Shown: in pieces, positions 1,008 to 11,616 of the stretch | How the letters are laid out: every line of letters begins with the position of its first letter | Position numbering within the stretch: position 1 is the stretch's first letter | Assembly: GCF_003933245.1 (NCBI RefSeq) | Contig: NZ_QUSX01000001.1 | Span: forward strand, 1,860,001-1,924,000 | Reading direction: 5' to 3' | Origin: Maribacter algicola | GTDB taxonomy: Bacteria; Bacteroidota; Bacteroidia; Flavobacteriales; Flavobacteriaceae | DNA: 64,000 nucleotides | Program-made: the position numbers and the translations under genes | Notes under the pieces: generated by a model | The model's database searches: none | Seen by the model: the letters and a program-made list of their open reading frames with translations, nothing else | Told to the model about the DNA's origin: nothing

Positions 1008-1742
1008 TTAATTCGTAAGCTTATTAATTTCAAGCATAGCAGCAAGTGTAATAAATCTCAAAATATGCGATATAATAAGTACCAATAACACTCTTAAAAC
1101 TAAATATATTTTTTTGTAGTTGTATCCTGAAAAAAATTGATAAAAAAACCAAAAAGCATAACCAAAACCAATTATTGCATATATATTAATTAGTGGTCTT
1201 ATCAGCGATTTATCATCAATGAAAGCAAATGATAGTGTAAGAGGTAATCCTAGTACAATTAAACCAGACCAAGAATAGATATTCATTACTAAATGTTCAG
1301 CAAAATTCAGTTTGCTTCTTCTAAAAAACAGATAACTGGAAATAGTTGTGGCACAAATAACAATTAAATAGGTGAGTTGTGGATAAGTTTCCAAAATTTG
1401 ATCCAGTGAATCACCAGAACTTTTAAACATTTCTGGTAATGCTTCATTACTATTTACATTGCCAAAATCGAGCAAAAATTCAATTGCGATTAGTAATATT
1501 AATAGACTAAAAGCATTAATATGTCGTATTCTTTTTCCTTGAATATATTCTCTGATGCTATGCCCAGGTCGTATAAAAAGCTCTTTTATAGTGAAGAAAA
1601 AACTTTTGTTAACGTTAAAAATTCCATTTAAAACTCCATTATCAAAAATATAACTAAACGAAAATCTATGTGTTGATGTTTTTTGTCCGCAATTTGGGCA
1701 GAAATTTTCCTTAACCGAGTTATTACAATTTAAACATTGCAT
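1008..1742 (-). CDS. DUF3667 family zinc-ribbon membrane protein
   Basis: A 244-residue protein opening with a zinc ribbon: CLNCNNSV and then FCPNCGQK supply four cysteines. A basic/aromatic stretch and about five hydrophobic segments follow. This is the layout of DUF3667, a family widespread in Bacteroidetes with no known biochemical role. The RPGHSIREYIQGKRIRH block before the first membrane helix is the typical conserved stretch. The gene stands alone between the IS110 end and the palindromic element at 1792-1987, and is AT-rich like the rest of this accessory region. Family assignment is by motif; function is unknown. Confidence 0.8.
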   Translation of the reverse strand: MQCLNCNNSVKENFCPNCGQKTSTHRFSFSYIFDNGVLNGIFNVNKSFFFTIKELFIRPGHSIREYIQGKRIRHINAFSLLILLIAIEFLLDFGNVNSNEALPEMFKSSGDSLDQILETYPQLTYLIVICATTISSYLFFRRSKLNFAEHLVMNIYSWSGLIVLGLPLTLSFAFIDDKSLIRPLINIYAIIGFGYAFWFFYQFFSGYNYKKIYLVLRVLLVLIISHILRFITLAAMLEINKLTN

Positions 1743-1791
1743 TCTATTTGTGTTTTTTTTCTTTAGTTAAAGATTGCATTCCGCAATGAAT

Positions 1792-1987
1792 GGCAACGGT
1801 TCGTATATGAAACGTAGCGTGTAAAAAGACACGGAACTTTCGTATTATATACGAGCCGAAATTTTAAATTTTCGTTTTACCTTTTTTCTCAAATAGCCAA
1901 ATTTAAAAATTTGGCGGCCTTTGTAAATATACACAAACCTCTAGGAAAGCCCATTCTAGCTATGTTTTATATATATTGTTAGCGGCT
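1792..1987. repeat. attC-like palindromic junction element (junction a)
   Basis: The element starts GGCAACGG and ends TTGTTAGCGGC. Just inside the ends, TATATGAAACGTAGC (from 1805) pairs with GCTATGTTTTATATA (ending about 1974) at 12 of 15 positions. Inner hairpins include CGTGT/ACACG and a perfect GCCAAATTT/AAATTTGGC stem at 1896-1915. It separates the DUF3667 gene from the next minus-strand unit. The plan (AAC, unequal spacers, long stem, variable inner structure, GTT) matches the other junctions at 3401, 4848, 7845, 8942, 10163 and 11077. Confidence 0.6.
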
Positions 1988-2002
1988 GGCTTTATTTTTC
2001 AG

Positions 2003-2704
2003 TTATTCAGATTTCAGTATTTTAAAATCCTTAAAATAACCTTCGGTTCCGATATCAACCCAAAGTGCTATACTTCCTGATTGAGTCTTTCCCTTCATTT
2101 CGTTCACGATGAATGATGCGTATTCTTGGTCGTTCAGGTAGAGTTTCGCCTCTTTTCCTTTGAATTCTACTCTAAATGTAATCCATTCATCAAGTCCGAT
2201 ATCTGCATAAGTTTCAAACTCGCCTTTTGATTCAGCCCGTAATCGGTCGAACTTATAGTCTGGATACGCATAATATTGTACGGTATGATTTCTCGCAAAT
2301 TGATTATCCGACCTACCCACATTAGGTCTTAGGTATATCGATTCGTATGCGGAATTGTCTTCATTTGCCCTAAACGCTACGCCAATAAATCCGTGGGACC
2401 CTTTGAATGGGGATGGAGTTTGAATTCTACTCAACATTTTTACTTCAAAGACACCGTTTTGGATATCCAGATTTTTCACTTTGACATAAGTCGGCTCGTC
2501 CACCGTATTCGATAAGTTTTCTAACTCAAATGGCAGGGCTTTCAAGTCCCGTTCAACTTTCAAAACATTCTCTCTGTTCAATTCCACTATTGATGCTTTT
2601 ACATCCGTAATTTCAAATTCCCTGCCTTCCCATTCTATGGTTTGTGCAGAGACATTTATAATAACTAGGAGAAACACTATTGTTGTAAATAATGAATATT
2701 TCAT
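2003..2704 (-). CDS. secreted concanavalin-like (LamG/DUF1080-like) protein
   Basis: A 233-residue protein with a clear signal peptide (hydrophobic residues about 5-20, then AQT). The body is beta-rich. It contains GSHGFIGVAFRA, IYLRPNVGRSD, an EWITFRVEFKGKEAKLYLND strand pair and GSIALWVDIGTEGYFKDFKI near the C-terminus. This order is typical of concanavalin A-like/LamG or 3-keto-disaccharide hydrolase-type folds, which bind or cleave carbohydrate. No catalytic residue can be named. It lies 95 bp downstream of a Crp-family regulator on the same strand, so the two probably form one unit. Fold call is moderate; substrate unknown. Confidence 0.6.
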   Translation of the reverse strand: MKYSLFTTIVFLLVIINVSAQTIEWEGREFEITDVKASIVELNRENVLKVERDLKALPFELENLSNTVDEPTYVKVKNLDIQNGVFEVKMLSRIQTPSPFKGSHGFIGVAFRANEDNSAYESIYLRPNVGRSDNQFARNHTVQYYAYPDYKFDRLRAESKGEFETYADIGLDEWITFRVEFKGKEAKLYLNDQEYASFIVNEMKGKTQSGSIALWVDIGTEGYFKDFKILKSE

Positions 2705-2799
2705 AACTAAATGATTTTAAGTTTGTTACATTTTAAAAATGCAAATTTAACTAGGCATTGATAATTTAGTCATTGACATAAATCAAGAAATTGGATAAT

Positions 2800-3369
2800 T
2801 TATTTTTTTGCCCTTATCCTGCTAAGGGTTTCAGGTGTTATTCCCATATACGAAGCAATCATATACTGAGGTACTCTTTGTATAATGTCGGGATATGTTT
2901 CTACGAAAATTTGATAACGTTTGTCTAGGGATAAACTTATGATATTGGCCGTTCTCTTTTGAATTGCCATGTATGCATTGGTCATCAAGATGCGTATATA
3001 GCTTTCATATTTTGGCATTATGTCCAAAAGTCTATCGTGTGACCCCTTGCTAATCAAGACAAGCTCCGTATCTTCCAAAGCATCAATGTTGTAAGTTGCA
3101 GGTTCTTGTTTGATAAAGCTGTTCAAATCTCCCATTGTCCAACCCTCAAGCCCAAAAAGGACTACATTTTCATCTCCTTTTGAATTTAGCACATAAGCCC
3201 TTAATACACCTTTTTCTATGAAAGTTATGTGGTCCGTAATTTCTCCGGCGTAAAGAAAGTGCTCCCCTTTTTTTAGCTTTTTTAAGGATAAATGGTTGAG
3301 TAATATTTTCTCTTCTTCCAAATCTAGTGTCACTTTCTCTCTAAACTTTTTTATAAATAGTTGTGACAT
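2800..3369 (-). CDS. Crp/Fnr-family transcriptional regulator
   Basis: A 189-residue protein with an N-terminal cyclic-nucleotide-binding-like beta-roll (about residues 20-120; FLYAGEITDHITFIEKG, ALEDTELVLISK). A short C-terminal helix-turn-helix follows (YMIASYMGITPETLSRIR). The C-terminal DNA-binding region is of the short type common in Bacteroidetes Crp-like regulators. It lacks the Fnr cysteine cluster, so iron-sulfur oxygen sensing is unlikely. The likely target is the secreted protein gene just downstream. The start is the ATG directly following a palindromic junction element, so its promoter must lie inside or next to that element. Confidence 0.88.
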   Translation of the reverse strand: MSQLFIKKFREKVTLDLEEEKILLNHLSLKKLKKGEHFLYAGEITDHITFIEKGVLRAYVLNSKGDENVVLFGLEGWTMGDLNSFIKQEPATYNIDALEDTELVLISKGSHDRLLDIMPKYESYIRILMTNAYMAIQKRTANIISLSLDKRYQIFVETYPDIIQRVPQYMIASYMGITPETLSRIRAKK

Positions 3370-3400
3370 AAATTGGGAAGTTTGTTTTTTTTAGCTTGCC

Positions 3401-3510
3401 GCTAACGCAGGGCTATGTGAAGCCACGTTACGGATTTTAAATTTACGCAACTTGTTGGGATAAATTTAAAATACGTGTTGAACGTGGACAGGTTGCATAT
3501 AGCCGTTGAT
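3401..3510. repeat. attC-like module A, copy 1
   Basis: The module starts GCTAACGCAGGGCTATGTG and ends GCATATAGCCGTTGAT. The flanks pair (GGCTATGTG with CATATAGCC). The inside is a long near-perfect stem: CCACGTT with AACGTGG, and ATTTTAAATTTA with TAAATTTAAAAT. An identical copy lies at 11,081 onward in the same orientation; identity continues without a mismatch for 147 bp (3404-3550 against 11,081-11,227). Confidence 0.7.
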
Positions 3511-3765
3511 ATGTACTTTTTTCCTCGATGGCACCTAAAGGTGATAGGTTTGCTGGTCCCTTATCCTACGGATTATGCAAACTGGCATGGCCCGGAGCCT
3601 GTGCAGAGTTTACCGAAGTAATGATGTACAAATCCCAAGGGGCGGGAATTGGAGCCTTTGGCGACAATGTAGCGACTTGGGTTCACCTTTAGGTGACCGA
3701 GCGAAGCGACCGATGAATACCTTTGAAAAACAATAAAATTTAAATGAATAATTGTACATCATCGG
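3505..3765. repeat. nested palindromic module B, copy 1
   Basis: The module begins in the last bases of module A at GTTGATATGTAC and ends GTACATCATCGG, so its ends pair with each other. Inside are the hairpins CACCTAAAGGTG and TCACCTTTAGGTGA, the stem GGTGACC-GAGCGAAGC-GACC, and the shared block GGTCCCTTATCCTACGG. A second full copy is at 7979-8235, and 5' fragments are seen at about 10,406 and 11,182-11,268. No protein is supported in it: the short frames here are not conserved in position or start. Confidence 0.65.
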
Positions 3766-3889
3766 TTAGTATATGAAAAGCTGGCCCTTTTGAAGCACAA
3801 AAACTTCGGTTAACCAAGAACTTTGATAAGTGCTAAAAGCTTTGAATTTATTATTGTTTTGTCAACTTTCATAGACACTGTTGTATAAC
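3763..3889. repeat. attC-like palindromic element (junction b, distal half)
   Basis: It starts CGGTTAGTATATGAAAAG and ends CTTTCATAGACACTGTTGTAT. TATATGAAAAG pairs with CTTTCATAGA. The inner part holds AAGCAC/GTGCT pairing and the palindrome GGTTAACC. It abuts module B and lies just before the 3' end of the metallo-beta-lactamase-fold gene. Together with modules A and B it fills the 3370-3907 gap, where I see no gene. Confidence 0.55.
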
Positions 3890-3907
3890 ATTTATTCTAC
3901 AAAAACT

Positions 3908-4827
3908 TCAGTTATTTGGTTTTTGAAGATTGTTTATTTTTTCAATTACACTTTTTCTTAAAGTTGTGTCTATATTTATTTTGAACTCTTCTTTTGTTAA
4001 AATTAGAGGGTTTTTTTCTGTTGGTTTTCTTGATCTTAGTTTTTTCATATCATTCAATAAATCATTAACAAAGGGATGGTTTGAAACTAGAGCATTCACA
4101 TTGTTTTCAACTGTATACCGCTCAAAATAATTTAAAGATTGCAGATATTTTTTATTTCCTTCTAAGGTATTAGGTAAACCAGTTCCCCCCCAAATGGAAA
4201 CAACCCGATCAGTATTATTGTCGGTTGTATTGAATATTAGAGAAATCGTTCCTTCAGTATGACCTGGTGTCAATAAAATTTCTAGCTTAGTTTCTCCAAG
4301 AGATATAACTTCTTTATCATCTACTTTTTGATATGATTTCGGTAATGCTAAATCACTTGATTTATTTCCAAAAGGATCTACTAAAACGGTCGTATTAGGG
4401 TCGTGAATACCATTCCAAGCAACTTCGCTCATTAGTATTTTTGAATGATAAACGCTCTCAATATAATTAGCACCACCATAATGGTCAGCATGTTCATGAG
4501 TGATAACTAGGTACTTAATATCTTTAGGATCTAATCCAAGTTTTTTATGCTTGGAATGATGACATTCTTTGCATCATCGTTAGTCCACATAGCGTCAATT
4601 AAGATAATTCCTCGTGTAGTATTTATAACAAATGCTCCCACACCTTCGTAACCAACAAAGTAAATATTATCAAACAATTTTGTTGGTTCAACAATTTCTG
4701 TATTGAATAATGGTGAAGTAGGTAAATCACTTTTTTCGTACGAAGTTGTAATAGTTCCTTCTTTCTTATAATTAGAATTACATCCCAATATAAGTAGGGT
4801 GAAGACCAGCAAAATTATGTTTTTCAT
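3908..4827 (-). pseudogene. MBL-fold metallo-hydrolase split by a frameshift
   Basis: Two adjacent frames (3908-4432 and 4531-4827) make one roughly 306-residue protein if the frame changes by -1 at an A run (T6 at 4541-4546 on the plus strand). The first part has a lipoprotein signal (LLILGC) and the family's early strands (GVGAFVINTTRGIILIDAMW). The joined frame restores LGLDPKDIKYLVITHEHADH, giving the zinc motif HxHxDH, which neither separate frame contains. The second part has the later zinc ligand in TPGHTEGTIS. This resembles exported subclass B3-like MBL enzymes; the substrate is unknown. The shift site is A AAA AAC in the proper zero-frame phase, a classic -1 slippery heptamer. It may therefore be a pseudogene, a sequencing slip, or a gene expressed by frameshifting. 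Confidence 0.8.
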
Positions 4828-4847
4828 GTTTTGATTTTAAATGATTT

Positions 4848-4975
4848 GCAACGGTTTCTTGTATATGAAGTAGCAAAGTAAATAGTACCTAATTTTCTAA
4901 AAGTAAAATACCTGATTAAATGCAAAAGGGATTGGGATTTCAATAAAACAACTATTTCTTAGATACGTTGTTGGC
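4848..4975. repeat. attC-like palindromic junction element (junction c)
   Basis: The element begins GCAACGGTTTCTTGTATATGAAG and ends TTAGATACGTTGTTGGC. The ends share the AACGGTT...TATATGAA signature of junctions a and b, and GTTGT on the right. The inner pairing (GTATATGAAG with the GATAC region, AAATAGT with ACTATTT) is weaker than at the other junctions. It separates the MBL-fold gene from the four-gene dioxygenase unit. Confidence 0.45.
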
Positions 4976-5044
4976 TGTTCACCTTTTTTTAAATTATCAT
5001 TTTGAAGGAAAGTATTTTCAAGTTTGAATATTGTCTATTTTCTT

Positions 5045-5929
5045 TTATGAAATTTTTAAACTGGTCATACTCAAACTTCCAGCTAAAAGTTTGTCATTAA
5101 ATAGGTTAATAGTCTCTCCTTTTTCCTGAAGTCCAAGGCTGTATATCAAAGGTAAATAATGATCTGGCGTAGGAATTGCCAATTGGAATGCTATTGATTG
5201 TTTGTGGTAATCAATCAGTGGTTGGTAATTACCATCTGTTAAATAATTGTTGATTTTTGCTCTTGCTTCTATGGCCCAATCATAGCCATAATCATCTTTA
5301 TGCACATTTGCAAAATCAATCATTCTTAAGTTGTGAATGATATTACCACTACCAATAATTAAAATTCCCCTGTTGCGCAGGTTTGTTAGTTTTTTAGCTA
5401 ACCCATAATGGTATTGTGCAGGTTTTGTATAATCGATACTTAACTGAATTACGGGAATGTTAGCTTTAGGGTAAAGATGTTTTATAACACTCCATGCACC
5501 ATGGTCCAGACCCCATTTATCATCTAATTCTACCACGGTGGGTGATAAAAGTGATTTGGTTTCCCGAGCAAGAGCTGGGCTTCCCATAACAGGATATTGC
5601 ACATCAAATAAAGCCTGTGGAAAGCCACCAAAATCATGAATTGTTTTAGGCATTTCCATAGCGGTAACCTTAGTACCATTTGTAAACCAATGGGCCGATA
5701 CACAGAGTATGGCGTTTGGGGTTGGAATTGTTTTGGCGATTTCTCTAAAGCCTTTAACAAATTCGTTTTCTTCAATGGCATTCATAGGGCTGCCATGCCC
5801 TAAAAATAGAACAGGCATTTTCTCAGTTAGTGAAAAAGCTTCTGATATTTTAGTTAAATCATTTAGTTTCATTCCTAAACCCATACATGGGAGCAGACCT
5901 AAAATCCCAAGAAAATCCGTTCTATTCAT
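5045..5929 (-). CDS. ygiD: LigB-type extradiol ring-cleavage dioxygenase (YgiD/4,5-DOPA dioxygenase family)
   Basis: A 294-residue protein of the class III extradiol dioxygenase family, non-heme iron enzymes that open catechol-type rings. Visible are PVLFLGHGSPMNAIEENEF with the first metal histidine, SAHWFTNG with a second conserved histidine, HDFGGFP, KWGLDHGAWSVIKHLYP and IIGSGNIIHNLR. The N-terminus carries about 30 extra residues (MNRTDFLGILGLLPCMG...) that look like a degraded signal or Tat leader; family members often start near KMPVLFLGHG. It is the last gene of a four-gene minus-strand operon (Crp, DoxX, NAD(P)-binding protein, dioxygenase), 20 bp after the preceding gene. The physiological substrate is not known. 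Confidence 0.87.
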   Translation of the reverse strand: MNRTDFLGILGLLPCMGLGMKLNDLTKISEAFSLTEKMPVLFLGHGSPMNAIEENEFVKGFREIAKTIPTPNAILCVSAHWFTNGTKVTAMEMPKTIHDFGGFPQALFDVQYPVMGSPALARETKSLLSPTVVELDDKWGLDHGAWSVIKHLYPKANIPVIQLSIDYTKPAQYHYGLAKKLTNLRNRGILIIGSGNIIHNLRMIDFANVHKDDYGYDWAIEARAKINNYLTDGNYQPLIDYHKQSIAFQLAIPTPDHYLPLIYSLGLQEKGETINLFNDKLLAGSLSMTSLKIS

Positions 5930-5949
5930 TATATATTAATGACATCAAT

Positions 5950-6777
5950 TTATTCAGATAGCCATTGCTGCAAAGTGGTTTTTGATTTTCCGAGTAAACG
6001 GTCAGAATTTTCTGGGTTTCCTGCTTCTTTTGTTTTCTCAAAATACTCAAACATGGGAATAAACTCTTTTAATTGTTTATTGCCAGATATAAACGCTATT
6101 ATTTTGAGTAACCAAAATGGTGCATTGGCAACCTTTTTAATGTTTGGATGTTTCACCTTAATATATTGCCCCAATGCTTCGTTAATGGTCAGTGCTTCTG
6201 GACCATAGGTATTGAATTCTTGATTTCTACATTCTGGTTTTTGATAGGCATTTACCAATAGTTTACCAAAATCTTTAGAAGCAATCCATCGTAGTTTAAT
6301 CGGTTGTTTTCCCATAACGTTGGCTTTACCATCTTGTATCATTAAAGCCAAAGATTCCATAAACCAAGTTGGTCTAAAAATCATGTACGGAATACCACTC
6401 GTTTTTATAAATTGCTCTGATTCGTATTTAGCTTTTATGAACGGCATTTCAGTATTTTCCTTACATACTGTAGCACCACTCACATAGCTAATACATTTTA
6501 TATCTTGCTTTTTTGCAGCTCTAACAATTTTCTGCACGGCACCAAACTCGTCTAATTGCCCCAAGGTAATATGTATGGCATCACAGTCTTTAATCGCCAA
6601 TGCCAAGTCGCTATCATTAAACACATCGCCTTTTACCGTTTCATGATTTGGATAGTTAGCTGCTTTTATGCTTCGAGAGAAGAGCTTAAGTTGAAAACCC
6701 GCACTATCAAATGCCTTTATGGTCTCTTGTGCCACCATACCACTTGCGCCCAATATGGCAATTTTTTCTATTGACAT
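5950..6777 (-). CDS. NAD(P)-binding atypical SDR / NmrA-like protein
   Basis: A 275-residue Rossmann-fold protein. The N-terminal GASGMVAQETIKAF is a GxxGxxG-type nucleotide-binding motif. It is followed by the KGDVFND acidic turn and a YVSGATVCKE strand near the usual SDR catalytic region. The tyrosine/lysine pair of classical SDRs is not obvious, so this fits the atypical NmrA-like group: NAD(P)H-binding redox sensors or quinone reductase-like enzymes. It sits between DoxX and the dioxygenase genes with short gaps, suggesting co-transcription and a shared redox or quinone-detoxification role. That role is inference from neighbours. Confidence 0.8.
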   Translation of the reverse strand: MSIEKIAILGASGMVAQETIKAFDSAGFQLKLFSRSIKAANYPNHETVKGDVFNDSDLALAIKDCDAIHITLGQLDEFGAVQKIVRAAKKQDIKCISYVSGATVCKENTEMPFIKAKYESEQFIKTSGIPYMIFRPTWFMESLALMIQDGKANVMGKQPIKLRWIASKDFGKLLVNAYQKPECRNQEFNTYGPEALTINEALGQYIKVKHPNIKKVANAPFWLLKIIAFISGNKQLKEFIPMFEYFEKTKEAGNPENSDRLLGKSKTTLQQWLSE

Positions 6778-6802
6778 TTTAGAAAGAGTTTAAAATAAAA
6801 AA

Positions 6803-7207
6803 TTACTTGCCAGTTATTGGTGCTTTTTTTGAGCGCCCCCATGCAACGAAAGCTGCGAGGATGAAAAAGAAAATATTCATACCAATAAGTGATACTTCGC
6901 CTCTTGAAATATGAAATACCATAGCAGCAATCATTAATGCCATGGTTCCATAAGCTGCAAGTACCGTTAATTTTGGTTGTAATCTAAAAGCTGCCGGTAA
7001 AACTATACCTATACCACCAAGTAAATCAACTATTCCTGTAATTTTTAACAACCCTGGGTTATCAAGTGCCCAAGGCAACATCTGCGCGGTTTCTTCAATG
7101 GGTTGGAACAATTTGGCGTAACCTGCCCAAATTAAGGTTAATGAAATTAGTACCTGTGCTACCCATAAAGCAATGTTAAGTCCTTTTGATTTTACTGTCG
7201 CTGTCAT
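6803..7207 (-). CDS. DoxX family membrane protein
   Basis: A 134-residue protein with four hydrophobic helices (about residues 10-30, 50-70, 78-98 and 105-125). The first helix contains LIWAGYAKLFQP and the second GIVDLLGGIGIVLPAA, both characteristic of the DoxX/SURF4-like fold. DoxX-like proteins are linked to thiosulfate:quinone oxidoreductase or to oxidant-resistance membrane complexes. The gene lies 25 bp upstream of the NAD(P)-binding gene and downstream of a Crp-type regulator. Family call is good; the specific partner is unknown. Confidence 0.85.
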   Translation of the reverse strand: MTATVKSKGLNIALWVAQVLISLTLIWAGYAKLFQPIEETAQMLPWALDNPGLLKITGIVDLLGGIGIVLPAAFRLQPKLTVLAAYGTMALMIAAMVFHISRGEVSLIGMNIFFFILAAFVAWGRSKKAPITGK

Positions 7208-7285
7208 TTTATATCTATTTGATTGTTAGTGATTAAGCAAAGATGCAAACAATCAAGAAGAAAAAAATTAAGGTATCTTAAGAAA

Positions 7286-7804
7286 TTACTTCTGAACTAA
7301 TTTTCTTCTAACATCACTTAGATATTCTGGTGTCATGCCCAAATAGGAAGCGATTAGTTTTAGTGGTAGTCTTTGTACTAAAGTTGGATAGGTTTCTATG
7401 AAATCCCTATAGCGTTCTTCAGCAGTTGCACTCAAAAGATTCATTAAACGCTTATTAGTAGAAATTAAATTGTTTATTAATTTATTGTTTTGCTCAAGCA
7501 AATCATCATGACTTAACTGACTTATATTATTGTAATCTGAAGTAGTAATCAGTGATACTTCGCTATCTTCAATTGCATTAATAAAAATATTGGAAGGTTT
7601 GCTATTGATAAAACTGTCCATATCTGTAATAAGCCAATCTTCAGCGGCAAAATGTAAAATATGTTCTTTGCCTGACTTGTCAACTACATAACTCTTTAAG
7701 CATCCTTTAACCACTCTATAAACGGATTTACAAATATCTCCTTTGTATAAAAGAATCGTTCCTTTGGAGACCTTTTGGGTTTGCAAATCGTTGAAAAGTT
7801 TCAT
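7286..7804 (-). CDS. Crp/Fnr-family transcriptional regulator
   Basis: A 172-residue regulator with a cNMP-binding-like beta-roll (GTILLYKGDICKSVYRVVKG, then INAIEDSEVSLIT) and a C-terminal helix-turn-helix (KLIASYLGMTPEYLSDVRRK). It is the first gene of the DoxX/NAD(P)-binding/dioxygenase operon and probably controls it. It is a distant paralogue of the regulator at 2800-3369: both end in the same ASYxGxTPExLSxxR helix but differ greatly elsewhere. The start ATG lies about 40 bp from a palindromic junction element. Confidence 0.88.
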   Translation of the reverse strand: MKLFNDLQTQKVSKGTILLYKGDICKSVYRVVKGCLKSYVVDKSGKEHILHFAAEDWLITDMDSFINSKPSNIFINAIEDSEVSLITTSDYNNISQLSHDDLLEQNNKLINNLISTNKRLMNLLSATAEERYRDFIETYPTLVQRLPLKLIASYLGMTPEYLSDVRRKLVQK

Positions 7805-7844
7805 TTAAAAGTTGGATTTGTTATGGAGTTACTATTGGGTTATA

Positions 7845-7984
7845 GCCAACGCAGGGCTATGTGTAGTCGTGCGCTTGGATTTTTGTTTTTCGTACCAGAA
7901 AGGTACGTAAAAAAGCAAAATACAAAGGAGCACACCAGATAGCATAGCCACCAGATGGGTTTTGTCGGGATGGTAGCCGTTGAT
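7845..7984. repeat. attC-like module A variant (junction d, proximal)
   Basis: It starts GCCAACGCAGGGCTATGTG and ends GGTAGCCGTTGATATG. The outer ends equal those of module A, but the interior is different: a hairpin TTTTTCGTACC/GGTACGTAAAAA and a GGCTATG/CATAGCC pairing. It shows that the ends are conserved while the inner stem is exchangeable, as in attC sites. Confidence 0.6.
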
Positions 7985-8235
7985 ATGCACAGTTGTTCTC
8001 GATGGCGCCTAAAGGTGATAAGATCGATGGTCCCTTATCCTACGGCCATTGCAATCTGACATAGCCCGGAGCCTGTGCAGAGTTTACCGAAGTAATGATG
8101 CACAAATCCCAAAGTGCGGGAATTGGAGCGTAGCGACAATGTAGCGATTTGGGTTCACCTTTAGGTGACCGAGCGAAGCGACCGATGAATACCTTTGAAA
8201 AACAATAAAAATTAGATGAATAATTGTACATCACG
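7979..8235. repeat. nested palindromic module B, copy 2
   Basis: It runs from GTTGATATGCAC to GTACATCACGG and is highly similar to 3505-3765 over its full length, including the CACCTAAAGGTG and TCACCTTTAGGTGA hairpins and GGTCCCTTATCCTACGG. Short frames crossing it have no homology I recognise and are not counted as genes. Confidence 0.65.
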
Positions 8236-8360
8236 GTCTCGGCTATGAGTAGTTGCGTGGTTTGACACTTAACTTTGCAAGTACACACCAAACTGAAAAT
8301 CCGCGAGGATTTTCAGAAGTAGCTGAGAATAAGCAATTACTTATAGCCATTGTTGTGCCA
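8229..8360. repeat. attC-like element (junction d, distal), close copy of 8942-9075
   Basis: It begins CACGGTCTCGGCTATGAG and ends CTTATAGCCATTGTTGTGCC. GGCTATGAGTAGTTG pairs with CAATTACTTATAGCC across the element at nearly every position, and an inner hairpin CTGAAAATCC/GGATTTTCAG is present. It is about 90% identical by eye to the element at 8942-9075, so the Nudix-like gene between them is bracketed by direct copies. With the two modules before it, it fills the 7805-8385 gap; I see no gene there. Confidence 0.7.
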
Positions 8361-8385
8361 CGTATTTTGTTCGATTTGTTAAAAG

Positions 8386-8925
8386 TTAAAGAGAATAAAA
8401 CTCTTCAATAATTTCAGTTTTCCAAATGTCATTTTCTTTAAATTGGCGCAAAGTCCCACCTAAAATACGATTTGGAGTATCTATAACGCCTTTAATCATT
8501 AAGCTTATATGAGGAAATGTAATAAGTTCTGTTGCCTCATCAACTGATACCCATTTTATTTCATCAATTCCAGTTGGTTTTTTCAACATTAGAGATTCAA
8601 TCTTTGCCACATAAACATTTCTCAAAGAGGTAGAGTATTCATTGTTAATTTCGCGCTTAAGAAGAAAAACACCTCTTAATTTAGGTTCTTCTATTTCAAT
8701 TCCGTAACTCTTAGCCAAATTGTTTAAGCCGTTTTGGATTGTCTCATCTTGTGTTTGATAAAAACCTTGTGTTACCCATACATTAGCATTTTCAACTTTA
8801 ACCACCATAATTTTATTCTCGGCATTTATAAGCACAAGTCGATGAAATATTTTTATCTCTGGTTCATTCTGACCGAAAACAGAGTTTAGGAATAATATGA
8901 ATAGTATGAAGATCGTTTTTTTCAT
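8386..8925 (-). CDS. secreted Nudix-like protein with a degenerate Nudix box
   Basis: The start is the ATG giving MKKTIFILFILFLNSVFGQ, a clear signal peptide; an upstream in-frame GTG lies inside the palindromic element and is unlikely. The body (EIKIFHRLVLINAENKIMVV, WVTQGFYQTQDE, LRGVFLLKRE, IDEIKWVSVDEATELI) follows the strand order of Nudix hydrolases. However, the REUxEExGU part of the Nudix box reads NLAKSYGI here, so the metal-binding glutamates are missing. A catalytic role in nucleotide hydrolysis is therefore doubtful, and export would be unusual for the family. It is the only gene in its unit between two near-identical palindromes. Confidence 0.6.
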   Translation of the reverse strand: MKKTIFILFILFLNSVFGQNEPEIKIFHRLVLINAENKIMVVKVENANVWVTQGFYQTQDETIQNGLNNLAKSYGIEIEEPKLRGVFLLKREINNEYSTSLRNVYVAKIESLMLKKPTGIDEIKWVSVDEATELITFPHISLMIKGVIDTPNRILGGTLRQFKENDIWKTEIIEEFYSL

Positions 8926-8941
8926 AACTGTTTTTATATGT

Positions 8942-9075
8942 GGCACAACGGTCTCGGCTATGAGTAGTTGGGTGGTTTAGCACTTAATTTTGCAAGTACA
9001 CACCAGGCTGAAAATCCGCTAGGATTTTCAGAAGTAGGCGAGAACAAGCAATTACTTATAGCCAATGTTGTACGC
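8942..9075. repeat. attC-like palindromic junction element (junction e)
   Basis: The clearest of the set. Ends are GGCACAAC and GTTGTACGC, which pair directly. The left spacer GGTCTC faces the right spacer AAT, an asymmetry like the unpaired central spacers of attC sites. Then GGCTATGAGTAGTTG pairs with CAATTACTTATAGCC, and the tip has CTGAAAATCC/GGATTTTCAG. The ends match the integron core consensus RYYYAAC/GTTRRRY at six of seven positions on each side. It separates the Nudix-like gene from the esterase gene with almost no other sequence. Confidence 0.7.
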
Positions 9076-9077
9076 AG

Positions 9078-10127
9078 TTATTTTTTCAATTCATATAAAT
9101 AATTCGCAGCAGCTTTACTAATTTCTCTATAATCGTGTCCGATATTTGGAATAATTTCTAATTTCCAATTGAATTCAGAGTTTAATTCCGATGCGATTTT
9201 TTTTGATTCATTATAAAAATATGTTCCTCTTTCCAGTCTATGAAGACCTTGTTTGTCAACTTCTGGTGAGTGTCTTAAATCTCCTCTCGTTTCATTGGCA
9301 TCGTCTTTTTCTCCAAGAAACAAGACAAGGTTTTTACTGAAATCTATTTCCTTTTCTAACAGATAACTGTCTTTTAAACCAGTTGGAAAATTTTCTCTAT
9401 CTGTCGGGACAGTGTACCAACCTGAATTTGATGATAAAATTCTATTAGCTTTATTATCTGACTTAAAAATAGCAAGACGATGTAGAATTTGTCCGCCAGC
9501 AGAATGCCCGAACAAATCGTAAGTATCTGTTTTAAGATTAAGTTTTTCTTTTGTTAAATTGAAAATTCGGTCAAAATCGTTGTAAATCCATTTATTAGGG
9601 TTCTTGCTAATTTTAAAATCTGTCATAGCTGTTCTCTCGTCATTTATTTCCACATCTGTAATCATTCCTGCCAAATTGTAGCTCCAAAATTCAGGATAAT
9701 ATCTTTCAGAGTATTCGGGTGATAGAACAAGAACATTGTATTTTTCGGCTTTTTCAATCCAAGCATCTCGATATTCATCTCCATTTCGCCCAGCACCTGG
9801 TAATACAATCACAGTTGGCGATTCGGATTTCAGATTCTTTGGTTTATAGTAATGAATGATTATTTGTTTTTCTTCTTGAAATCCTCCATCAATTAAAAAT
9901 TTCCCACTTCCGTCCTGAATATTAATTTCATTTAAGATTAGTTCCTTTTCAGGAAGTAAATCACTTTTTTTAATAAGGTTCATTTTACAGTGTGGACAAA
10001 TTCCAGATTCGTTAAAAGTCAATTCGTCACAAGGTAAATCACAAGGTTTGCATACATACTCTCCCGTTTGGTCTTTACAAGAAATAAGAGCGAAAAGAAC
10101 TAGAATAAATAAAAATTTTGATTTCAT
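9078..10127 (-). CDS. lipoprotein alpha/beta hydrolase with N-terminal metal-binding domain
   Basis: A 349-residue lipoprotein (LVLFALISC lipobox). Residues about 24-55 hold VCKPCDLPCDE...GICPHCKMNL, a CxxC...CPxC.M pattern like the heavy-metal-binding domain found on copper-transport proteins. From about residue 70 comes an alpha/beta hydrolase: VIVLPGAGRNGDEYRDAW (oxyanion region), LFGHSAGGQ (nucleophile serine) and IPNIGHDYREIS (catalytic histidine). A DDANETRGD segment may carry the acid. The enzyme is probably an esterase anchored on the periplasmic or outer face. Joining a metal-binding ribbon to a hydrolase is unusual. Its 3' end lies immediately next to the palindrome at 8942-9075. 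Confidence 0.75.
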   Translation of the reverse strand: MKSKFLFILVLFALISCKDQTGEYVCKPCDLPCDELTFNESGICPHCKMNLIKKSDLLPEKELILNEINIQDGSGKFLIDGGFQEEKQIIIHYYKPKNLKSESPTVIVLPGAGRNGDEYRDAWIEKAEKYNVLVLSPEYSERYYPEFWSYNLAGMITDVEINDERTAMTDFKISKNPNKWIYNDFDRIFNLTKEKLNLKTDTYDLFGHSAGGQILHRLAIFKSDNKANRILSSNSGWYTVPTDRENFPTGLKDSYLLEKEIDFSKNLVLFLGEKDDANETRGDLRHSPEVDKQGLHRLERGTYFYNESKKIASELNSEFNWKLEIIPNIGHDYREISKAAANYLYELKK

Positions 10128-10162
10128 TGTTGATTGATTTGATTGATGTTTGTTCTAATTGC

Positions 10163-10576
10163 GTACAACGCCGCGCTATGTGCAGTCCGGCGAATTTTAT
10201 GGAAATATAGTGAAAACCATCAACGATGGTTCGGTTATCTGACCGGTTTCGGATATTGCTAACCGAATCATCGTTCATCGATAAGGCTACGTAGTGGCCG
10301 TCTATCGTGGTTTTCACGGTATTGGGAATATAATTTGTCGACCAGATTACATATAGCGTCCTGATATGTCGAGTAGATAAGCCGTAGCGGCGGTCTTTGC
10401 AAAGAGGTCCCTTATCCTAGGGCCATTGCAATCTGACATAGCCCTGCGATGATGTCGACTAGCTTTTGGTGCGGCAATTGCGCTAGCAATGCGACAAAAG
10501 TACGCCGCAGGCGTATTCGACATCATCGGTCTAGTATAAGCGGTCGTTTTAATGCCGCTTATACATTGTTGTAAGC
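10163..10576. repeat. composite palindromic junction element (junction f, with module C)
   Basis: It runs from GTACAACGCCGCGCTATGTG to TTATACATTGTTGTAAGC and fills the whole 10,128-10,581 gap; no gene is seen. The first part is a long hairpin closed by GCGCTATGTG/CATATAGCGTC, with GTGAAAACCA (10,210-10,219) pairing with TGGTTTTCAC (10,308-10,317) inside. Next is the GGTCCCTTATCCTA block shared with module B. Then comes module C (10,448-10,530), bounded by GATGATGTCGA/TCGACATCATC. Last is a short unit with a perfect ten-base stem GTATAAGCGG/CCGCTTATAC (10,534-10,564) before GTTGTAAGC. Confidence 0.65.
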
Positions 10577-10581
10577 AGTTT

Positions 10582-11046
10582 TTATTTGATTCGTTTTTTA
10601 AGGAGCAATATTTGTCCAAGATGATAGTATGTATGTTCAATCATCGCATCTATATTCCTGTAATATGTTCCATATTGTTTATCCACAAAATCCGACATTA
10701 TTTCTTCGTCTGACATCTTACTTACCAGTTCAATAAATTCTTCAGAATCAAAGCAAAATTTATTTACTAGATTCTTCCAATCTTGTTCTGATTTTATTGG
10801 AGGAGAATCAAAACTAAATTTATCTCGTATGTCAAGGGTTCCTCCTTTAAGGACTTTAATTATTCCATCCAAGTAATAATCAATGTGGAAGGTCAAATCA
10901 GCAATAGTATTGTAATTTTCAACTTTTTGTGTTGCTTGTTTCCAGTTAAGACTAACTATCTGTTCTTTGAAATTTGTTCCTAAAACCCATTTTCCTTCCA
11001 ATAAAATCTCTTTTAAACGATTGGACAAATATTCGTTAAGTTTCAT
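10582..11046 (-). CDS. DinB-like four-helix-bundle protein
   Basis: A 154-residue helical protein. DLTFHIDYYLDGIIKVLKGG supplies the first conserved histidine, and the C-terminal MIEHTYYHLGQILLLKK has the family's HxxxHxGQ-type metal ligands. This layout matches DinB/DUF1572-like proteins of the DinB/YfiT superfamily, some of which are metal-dependent thiol transferases. No substrate can be inferred. It is a single-gene unit between composite palindromic elements and begins about 30 bp from the next one. Confidence 0.8.
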   Translation of the reverse strand: MKLNEYLSNRLKEILLEGKWVLGTNFKEQIVSLNWKQATQKVENYNTIADLTFHIDYYLDGIIKVLKGGTLDIRDKFSFDSPPIKSEQDWKNLVNKFCFDSEEFIELVSKMSDEEIMSDFVDKQYGTYYRNIDAMIEHTYYHLGQILLLKKRIK

Positions 11047-11076
11047 TCTAAGCCAGTTTTTGTTTTTTCAGCTTGC

Positions 11077-11268
11077 GTACAACGCAGGGCTATGTGAAGC
11101 CACGTTACGGATTTTAAATTTACGCAACTTGTTGGGATAAATTTAAAATACGTGTTGAACGTGGACAGGTTGCATATAGCCGTTGATATGTACTTTTTTC
11201 CTCGATGGCACCTAAAGGTGATAGGTTGGCTGGTCCCTTATCCTACGGCCAATGTAATCTGGCATAGC
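11077..11268. repeat. attC-like module A copy 2 plus start of module B (junction g)
   Basis: It begins GTACAACGCAGGGCTATGTG. From 11,081 to 11,227 it is identical to 3404-3550, and the match continues with one mismatch to GGTCCCTTATCCTACGG. The same inner stem (ATTTTAAATTTA/TAAATTTAAAAT) and outer GGCTATGTG/CATATAGCC pairing are present. After CCTACGGCCAATGTAATCTGGCATAGC the sequence passes into module C instead of the rest of module B. Confidence 0.7.
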
Positions 11269-11272
11269 GCGG

Positions 11273-11356
11273 CGATGATGTCGACTGGCTTTTGGTGCGG
11301 TAATTGCGCCAGCAATGCGACAAAAGTACGCCGCAGGCGTATTCGACATCATCGGT
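11273..11356. repeat. palindromic module C, copy 2
   Basis: It is bounded by GATGATGTCGA and TCGACATCATCGG, which pair. The inside carries CTTTTGGTGCGG, GCGCCAGCAATGCG and GTACGCCGCAGGCGTA. It differs from the copy at 10,448-10,530 at only a few positions, several of which (A/G, C/T, T/C) lie in inner stems. It is more GC-rich than the surrounding genes. Short frames that recur in both copies read through the palindrome and are not taken as genes. Confidence 0.65.
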
Positions 11357-11616
11357 TGGGCTATGATTTCGTTGCGGACTTTTGAAAGTGTTGATATATA
11401 AAATGCACGTATATGGAATGCCTGCTGTGCGAAGTTGCAAACTTCACACTTCATCAATGCATCATCTAATTTAAAACTTTGTGCTTTGAAGTAGCAAACT
11501 TCGAAGAGCGGGATTGCTGTTTGTTTAAATTATTGCCAACGTAGGAGTATAAATCATTGATAATCTATATTTCTTTTACATGAGCAATATAACCAATAAT
11601 GACATAAGGGCATAAA
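11357..11616. other. gene-free array end with two GCA-loop hairpins
   Basis: This is the right end of the palindrome array. It holds two similar hairpins: GTGCGAAGTT-GCA-AACTTCACAC (11,427-11,449) and GCTTTGAAGT-AGCAA-ACTTCGAAGAGC (11,483-11,509). At about 11,532 there is a degenerate copy of the array's left signature (GCCAACGTAGGAGTAT). No gene is seen before the terminator at 11,617. Confidence 0.45.

Follow-up and report, generated by a model that had tools for sequence, protein, structure and literature searches.

An integrase-less cassette array in Maribacter algicola and its likely place in an integron-like system of Bacteroidota

When gene units on one strand are separated by palindromes that resemble attC sites and no integrase is in view, are they mobile cassettes, and if so, what kind of recombinase serves them? 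This question is raised by a 64,000-nucleotide stretch from the flavobacterium Maribacter algicola (C1:1860001-1924000 of a 4.1-Mb genome; “the window” below), in which minus-strand gene units with hairpin elements between them occupy positions 1795-11540. A preliminary description had proposed an integron-like array of the type called clusters of attC sites lacking integron-integrases (CALIN), of a Bacteroidetes type, and our analysis supports that interpretation. Judged by its sequence, the window very probably contains a cassette array that lacks an integrase and belongs to an integron-like system of Bacteroidota.

Cassette borders and hairpin elements

The borders of the cassettes follow the pattern GTTnnnnnn...nnnnnnAAC, in which the two 6-bp arms match each other across the gene and not within the hairpin; an element read on the plus strand runs nnnnnnAAC...GTTnnnnnn. 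If the units travel as circular cassettes, the arm that follows GTT in one element should be the inverted counterpart of the arm that precedes AAC in the element on the other side of the gene, and the two arms of one element need not agree. Such matching of cassette ends is the cassette logic of integrons. We compared the arms of 19 cassettes from the three arrays of the genome, taking right ends from a covariance model and left ends by eye. The arms agreed at 6/6 positions in 14 cassettes and at 5/6 or better in 16, while only 5 of 342 wrong pairings reached 6/6 and none of 20000 permutations reached the observed sum. The cassettes under 5/6 were W 3882/4850 (3; broken gene), B 10755/13285 (1) and B 13408/13849 (4). 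An earlier comparison, in which the ends on both sides were placed by eye, gave a mean match of 6.9/10 within the same cassette (22 cassettes), 3.2 between different cassettes and 2.7 within elements.

As the preliminary description had claimed, an element opening on AAC was present at all seven junctions (AAC at 1795, 3404, 4850, 7848, 8947, 10167 and 11081). Its end consensus, ACAACGGT...GTTGTRC, was right in the GTT/AAC ends and wrong in the fixed bases; the next six bases vary by cassette and match across the gene. The canonical integron core has the consensus GTTRRRY / RYYYAAC. This heptamer does not hold here, where cores such as GTTGTGC and GTTAGCG deviate from it and the pattern is GTTR followed by five variable bases.

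A stem search for single elements was unspecific, giving 24, 52 and 29 matches in the regions of the three arrays against 16, 41 and 21 in shuffled sequence, and the search therefore turned first to chains of cassette borders and later to a covariance model. We collected 194 distinct elements from 43 loci (the M. algicola genome counted as one), and kept 190 after dropping 4 with a weak stem 1. The hairpins are about 124 nt long, with a peak at 123-126 nt among the 194, and 182 of the 211 stretches between chained cassettes measured 100-135 nt although 80-560 bp were allowed. In 190 of the 194, stem 1 stands at a fixed place: AAC, 3 nt, a 6-bp stem, a mismatch, 4 bp, a mismatch, 4 bp, a variable middle, 5-8 nt and GTT. 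The elements thus have the imperfect palindrome, the R''/R' boxes (AAC/GTT) and the L''/L' stem of attC sites. They also have a variable middle and unequal spacers, the left (5-8 nt, mostly 5-6) being longer than the right (3 nt) as first described, with A.C mismatches in place of clear extra-helical bulges.

These mismatches bear on the choice of strand. At the two mismatch columns the top strand has A.C in 124/190 and 107/190 elements and a standard pair in 33% and 13%, and an A.C there is a T.G on the bottom strand. The arms of the bottom strand were the more stable in 177/190 elements (2 ties) and 42/43 loci, as was the whole bottom-strand element in 171/190. The G.T/A.C positions may do the strand-choice job of extra-helical bases. 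It could be asked whether the hairpins are instead terminators, attenuators or other RNA signals between single-gene units whose order is merely variable, since they are intergenic and they fold. For a hairpin in mRNA, however, the better-folding strand is the wrong one, being antisense to the genes in those 177 elements; the arms, moreover, match across the gene rather than across the hairpin, and shared cassettes end at the arms. We give the RNA-signal explanation practically no credence.

The hairpins show covariation. In an alignment of 73 elements (6 of the 79 listed were omitted), 88.5% of the pairing cells could pair, compared to 63.7 in shuffled alignments. Each of the 14 stem pairs shows changes at both of its positions (mean of 11.0 in shuffles), so the lack of compensatory changes that would have told against the proposed array was not seen. 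There were 203 double-change cells against a shuffled mean of 58, and slid versions gave at most 93; none of 500 shuffles reached the covariation score. The covariance model built from these 73 elements (R1), 2 of which come from the M. algicola genome, matched five elements of the window with E<=1e-4 (1795-1980, 3761-3882, 4850-4972, 8232-8354 and 8947-9069), each of them read on the minus strand. R1 misses the second element of the composite junctions at 10167-10570 and 11081-11540. CALIN are recognized by at least two attC sites with no integrase near, and the window offers five R1 matches to attC-like sites between 1795 and 9069.

A tyrosine recombinase linked to arrays

Two further clusters of elements lie in the same genome, at C1:1543703-1563466 and C3:256366-259786. 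Directly right of the first of these sister arrays, whose cassettes are on the minus strand, is a tyrosine recombinase gene on the plus strand (C1:1563469-1564260), which is the divergent layout of typical integrons. A recombinase near other arrays, which the preliminary description had suggested looking for, thus adjoins a sister array in this genome and arrays in many other genomes. The last element of the sister array runs into the recombinase gene, whose start is lost: following a stop, its frame opens with KLKAYSPNTIRVYLAEF, and in full-length relatives about 90 more residues precede this point. Truncated as it is, this protein is the best of the ten TIGR02249 matches in the genome, yet it scores below the cut-off and matches in two pieces. 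The genome has no IntI above that cut-off, and none of the ten matches falls in the window, in agreement with the first impression that the window lacks an integrase.

Five proteins of the recombinase family gave 181-204 bits with TIGR02249 (cut-off 265), all five in two pieces. An additional domain around patch III defines the canonical integron integrase (PMC9668308; here and below, papers are cited from excerpts of their text). In a comparison of VchIntIA (2a3v) with a profile of 22 family members this IntI-specific insertion was absent, residues 180-243 of VchIntIA facing 21 profile positions (profile 257/279 versus chain 179/244). Because this defining domain was tested and not found, the system lies outside the IntI-defined family. 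The catalytic residues are invariant across the 22 integrases, and a C-terminal motif reads SPLD in the family and SPVD or SPFD in the IntI compared. The closest solved relatives are XerA and VchIntIA, the latter first among the Foldseek matches. Family and IntI may be sister lineages, a relation that our tree (23 family rows, 10 IntI and 2 other recombinases) does not itself show; family monophyly received 73/44, with long branches.

Most flavobacterial copies examined, including the 22 aligned, carry an extra N-terminal domain of about 75-100 aa. We had presumed a resemblance to the HARP-like single-stranded DNA-binding domain, which received no support: the Pfam matches listed for five full-length proteins, with a limit of E=10, did not include that domain, and the N-terminal domain predicted alone (pLDDT 89.6) had no PDB fold match at E<=0.001.

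To assess linkage we searched both sides of integrase genes for chains, defined as three or more cassettes whose 9-bp inverted ends match exactly and that are 80-560 bp apart. Among the 57 of 77 named loci that have more than 1.5 kb of upstream sequence, chains were found upstream in 16 and downstream in 4 (Tangfeifania, Maribellus); 171 shuffles gave at most 2. A further 27 loci were chosen from single-contig genomes (integrase identity 37-53%; some of these genomes have further copies outside the sample), and there chains were found downstream in 23 and upstream in none. Two layouts therefore occur, a divergent one and a codirectional one in which the integrase is followed by the array. In the genus itself, locus L143 has an upstream chain of 4, and a contig end interrupts L144. 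Among further recombinases from the M. algicola genome, L145-L147 had a chain of 1 or 0 on either side and L148 yielded no match; L145 and L146 are two tyrosine recombinases of about 298 aa without an array. Four genomes are represented by two integrases each, G159 (L149, L150), G040 (L151, L152), G056 (L153, L154) and G168 (L163, L164), and all eight have their own downstream chain of at least three. The chained cassettes point one way: in 238 of the 254 cassettes with an ORF (open reading frame) of at least 50 aa the longest ORF is directed outward and in 16 it is opposite, 23 of all 277 cassettes being without such an ORF.

The first core of the array was near the integrase in 33/44 chains, at most 150 nt after the stop codon in 18/27 and at most 260 nt before the start codon in 15/17. 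In 20 of these 33 a perfect dyad whose arms have 6 or more bases lies in the 31 nt that end at the first core, compared to 111/1650 shuffles. Examples of this attI-like site are ATAACACCACCGGTGGTGTTATCCAATTGTTA after a stop codon and ACACATATATATGTGTTG 5' of a start codon.

Control of the integrase by the SOS response was considered and received no support. The Flavobacteriaceae SOS motif is GGA-N5-TCC (PMC8565304), and it occurred within 250 bp upstream in 1/83 integrases and 19/1660 shuffled sequences. A palindrome, TTTTGTATATCA...TGATATACAAAA, recurs between the attI-like site and the integrase start (L060, L069, L087 and others); it differs from the Flavobacteriaceae SOS box and is possibly an operator. 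A simple test for its core, requiring both TGATAT and ATATCA within 200 bp upstream, was positive in 23/61 genes of the clade above 60% and in 1/26 of the rest.

Turnover, sharing and distribution of cassettes

If the array is mobile, its contents should differ among relatives. Of 36 genomes of the genus, 34 have the right flank of the window array. At ten orthologous loci the cassette genes of the window had no DNA match (blastn, E<=1e-15; the comparison was of DNA and not of proteins), and the fixed gene order that would have spoken against cassettes was thus not seen; G587 and G594 did match the window in repeats of its elements. The flanks stand 11.7 kb apart in G587, where plus-strand genes also lie between them, and 9.3 kb apart in G591; the distance is 5.2 kb in G585, 4.4 kb in G581, 3.8 kb in G595 and 1.6 kb in G580. 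No array is present in G611 or G598, where 222 and 155 bp separate the flanks, and in G594 and G600 the contig stops before the second flank, after at least 8.4 kb and after 0.9 kb. Exact chains numbered 4 in G594 and at most 1 in the other intervals, and not every interval is a clear array. In M. algicola as in G585 and G600, the breakpoint on the right falls at an AAC core with a short dyad next to it, the anchor of the array (11533-11575, strand unassigned), and it lies at nearly the same place in G585 and G600.

Individual cassettes are shared. The DinB-like cassette of the window occurs elsewhere in two Maribacter genomes, G598 and G591, at 77-78% identity from GTTGTAAGC to the AAC core, and the hairpins outside differ. 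Among the 277 cassettes of 47 arrays, 11 cross-array hits covered at least 60% of a cassette, some being the same pair seen from both sides. A 585-bp cassette is common to Arenibacter troitsensis L085 and G014 L165 (84%), and one of about 680 bp to G157 L161 and G068 L141 (92%), which belong to different genera. In these two pairs three of the four ends of homology lie within 1-7 bases of a GTT or AAC core and the fourth 25 bases outside, with other hairpins beyond. For L151/L150 (66%) homology continues through the hairpin, and for L152/L138 it begins at the core and stops 11 bases short of the other end. The gene segments thus keep their borders while the hairpins are replaceable, perhaps through gene conversion between hairpin copies within one genome. 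Clean cassette borders are not shown by all relatives of the window's cargo genes: a G581 relative of the gene at 9078-10127 has no recognisable borders, and G594 has a block like 5047-8253.

One might suppose instead that the hairpins are dispersed repeats of the REP (repetitive extragenic palindromic) or MITE (miniature inverted-repeat transposable element) kind, which owe their spread to a transposase or to homologous recombination, and that ordinary recombination changes the genes with no cassette recombinase involved. The elements are indeed repeated within the genome, with composite copies more than 90% alike, the hairpins beside homologous genes differ among genomes, and an IS110-family gene lies at the left end of the array. 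Dispersed repeats would not, however, predict arms specific to each cassette, a narrow length, a single gene orientation or an integrase beside the array in many genera, and we regard this explanation as extremely improbable.

The elements are widespread. R1 matched at E<=1e-6 in 174 of 199 genomes of the family and in 106 of 296 across the phylum, some of the latter on one weak match. A relative of the integrase was found at E<=1e-40 in 125 of the 199 family genomes; integrase and elements occurred together in 123, integrase only in 2, elements only in 51 and neither in 23 (Fisher 1.7e-9, tallies crossed by hand). Outside the class, R1 matches near integrases on the same contig were seen, for example, at G242:C44, G234:C33, G365:C17 and G249:C4. 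The integrases at these four places match the profile from position 72-77 on, so they are without most of the N-terminal domain. Profile A1 matched 336/395 phylum genomes, a figure that includes matches of about 1e-45 to 1e-60 taken for Xer proteins and is not the prevalence of the family.

Canonical integrons follow another distribution. IntI above the TIGR02249 cut-off occurs in 105 of 395 genomes of the phylum, as delimited by the source of the genomes, and at 1e-60 TIGR02249 matched 107 genomes, 106 outside the class, one in the class and none in the family. This evidence and the missing IntI of the M. algicola genome bear on the possibility that the window array is a canonical CALIN, served by a true IntI with the IntI-specific domain from elsewhere while the linked recombinase is incidental. 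The AAC/GTT ends, the inner stem and the bottom-strand bias have the look of attC, and IntI does exist in the phylum. But with elements in 174 of the 199 family genomes, repeatedly beside a non-IntI recombinase, and none of the 107 genomes in the family, a canonical integron is very unlikely.

Within the window, gene-like ORFs from 1008 to 11046 all lie on the minus strand, as had been noted, and so do the elements, cassettes and junctions of the array. The gene of a DUF3667 protein (1008-1742; PF12412, 1.8e-12) is the outermost cassette gene; it had been counted as a unit of the array, but its far end has no element, and an IS110-family transposase gene stands there instead (45-803; full ORF L020:14835-15803). 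Palindromes resembling attC are targets of IS110/IS1111 elements. An attC-like element at 1795-1980 (R1 E 1.4e-8; AAC 1795, GTT 1978) is followed by a cassette between GTTAGCGGC and GCCGCTAAC (1978-3406; arms matching 6/6), in which Pfam identified a gene like 3-keto-disaccharide hydrolases (2003-2704) and a cyclic nucleotide monophosphate (cNMP)-binding regulator (2800-3369). Next come a short attC-like element (3404-3507; AAC 3404...GTT 3505; stem GGCTATGTG/CATATAGCC), which is part of a composite junction, a gene-less stretch (3508-3760) that could be a degenerate cassette and recurs at 7982-8231 and partly at 11185-11352, and an attC-like element at 3761-3882 (E 6.5e-5). The cassette at 3880-4852 (arms 3/6; no Pfam hit in the scanned piece) has a gene at 3908-4827 that is split into two ORFs in different frames (3908-4432 and 4531-4827), as in a decaying cassette, and by eye resembles the metallo-beta-lactamase (MBL) fold.

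Beyond the element at 4850-4972 (E 8e-7), a four-gene cassette (4970-7850; arms 5/6) has LigB-like (5045-5929), NmrA-like (5950-6777), DoxX-like (6803-7207) and cNMP-binding regulator (7286-7804) genes, assigned from ORFs and Pfam. The composite junction at 7848-8354 comprises an element (7848-7981), the gene-less 7982-8231 and a standard element (8232-8354; E 3.6e-18). A cassette with a 186-aa gene (8352-8949; gene 8386-8946; arms 6/6, GTGCCA) is followed by an element at 8947-9069 (E 1.5e-18), among those from which R1 was built, and by a cassette with a 349-aa gene (9067-10169; gene 9078-10127; arms 6/6, GTACGC); neither gene had a Pfam hit. After a composite junction (10167-10570), the cassette at 10568-11083 carries a DinB_2-like gene (10582-11046), and a composite junction with a degenerate last part (11081-11540) forms the right end. 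The DinB_2 match is below its cut-off, and of the cargo labels given at first, Nudix-like, esterase and MBL-fold were made by eye, with no Pfam hit in the proteins scanned. One element per junction is correct at 1795, 4850 and 8947 and incorrect at 3404, 7848, 10167 and 11081, which are composites in which a gene-less stretch separates a short element from a second one.

The composite junctions (3404-3882, 7848-8354, 10167-10570 and 11081-11540; also in L016 and L017) have two elements around a gene-less repeat with its own inverted repeat. Near-copies are present in two arrays, and one of them adjoins the truncated integrase; that at 10167-10570 has near-copies at three places in a sister array, one of them partial, at 94-98% identity. 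At the left end of a sister array, an ORF (G000 L016:9287-9664) looks by eye like a REP-associated (Y1) transposase. At Rfam gathering scores a tRNA was the sole match in the window.

A probable integron lineage of Bacteroidota

The border rule, the covariation and strand bias of the hairpins, the linkage to an integrase, the turnover and sharing of cassettes and, in 20 of 33 loci, the attI-like dyad suggest a common mechanism. A tyrosine recombinase from a lineage close to but distinct from IntI would recognise attC-like hairpins of about 124 nt, folded from single strands of which the bottom one pairs better, as well as a short double-stranded dyad ending at GTT beside its own gene, the attI-like site. 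Cassettes would be excised as circles, their ends GTTnnnnnn and nnnnnnAAC pairing with each other, and would be inserted at the attI-like GTT in one orientation. Folding of single-stranded DNA in the cell, cleavage of the bottom strand at GTT, formation of circles and catalysis by the linked integrase are what this mechanism would entail.

Several observations weigh against this reading. No circle, excision or insertion has been observed. Genomes were sampled one per species, and no strain pair with a single-cassette difference was seen. The truncated integrase (L017:11469-12263), cut by the end of the array and without a start codon, is the only close copy in the genome; since it lacks its 5' end, the arrays may now be frozen or mobilised by a recombinase from elsewhere. 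Four of the 27 single-contig loci (L136, L162, L166 and L167) have no chain, 41 of the 57 named loci have fewer than three exact units upstream, many by a contig end, and elements are also present in 51 of 74 genomes with no integrase match at 1e-40. Shuffles gave chains of 4 in 2/160 cases, so a chain of 3-4 alone is no proof; and the chain test selects exact matches, so the arms of chained cassettes are no independent evidence, which the arm test of 19 cassettes is. The first exact core lies farther off in 11/44 chains, by up to 4.6 kb, and 13 of the 33 near cores have no dyad. Finally, the hairpin beside one and the same cassette gene differs from genome to genome, which is not what a strict gene-plus-attC unit would predict without hairpin exchange.

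Compared to IntI integrons (VchIntIA, PDB 2a3v), the system is alike in having an integrase, a candidate attI-like site, a one-way array, a bottom-strand bias and matching cassette arms, and the AAC...GTT hairpins fit the published attC range of 57-142 nt (PMC2727003). It differs in that the family lacks the IntI-specific insertion, falls below the TIGR02249 cut-off and has the extra N-terminal domain in aligned flavobacterial copies, in its A.C (top) or G.T (bottom) stem mismatches rather than clear extra-helical bases, and in arms made of GTT and six variable bases. Treponema-type integrons, whose integrase is transcribed towards attI, have the downstream layout seen in 23 of the 27 single-contig loci, but their integrases are called intI (PMC3607928), while here the insertion is absent and a second clade is divergent. 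Xer recombinases are simple two-domain proteins that resolve chromosome dimers at dif. XerA, XerC and XerD are close by sequence, but the family is linked to cassette arrays and has an extra N-terminal domain in the 22 aligned members.

An integron-like subgroup of tyrosine recombinases has been defined in which the catalytic-domain insertion is not fully conserved (PMC8138268), and the flavobacterial family may fall in it by sequence. On the other hand, the excerpted text ties the insertion to integron function and describes no cassette arrays for members without it. IntegronFinder 2.0 reports CALIN and In0 in Bacteroidetes, which the window resembles in having attC-like sites without an integrase, and, in the part cited, one complete integron in Bacteroidetes proper, that of Salinibacter ruber (PMC9024848); the stem “flavobacteri” is absent from its main text. 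Bacteroidota are named among the phyla with integrons, with no detail in the excerpts, in PMC8618304 and PMC9668308. A flavobacterial integron of this kind was not found in the open PMC literature, including the cited portions of PMC9024848, PMC9668308, PMC8138268 and PMC8618304; preprints and most subscription journals were outside this scope, and a prior description is possible.

On the sequence evidence, then, the system works like an integron, and its best name is a new, non-IntI integron lineage. Bacteroidota are likely to have an integron lineage of their own, with a recombinase without the IntI-specific domain, strand choice through A.C (top) or G.T (bottom) positions and not through extra-helical bases, sites in most sampled Flavobacteriaceae and, in other classes, a subgroup lacking most of the N-terminal domain. 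If so, integron-type gene capture would be common in a large family for which the surveys, in the portions cited, report none, and surveys that depend on IntI or on standard attC models would have overlooked a large pool of mobile cassettes. The IntI domain would be unneeded for integron recombination, and the requirements of recombination at folded single-strand sites would be separable from the particulars of IntI, and nature would offer a second way of choosing the strand, for comparison with attC. Because the family and IntI may be sister lineages, the origin of integrons would become testable, and hundreds of cassettes (277 in the arrays examined) would become addressable as mobile units.

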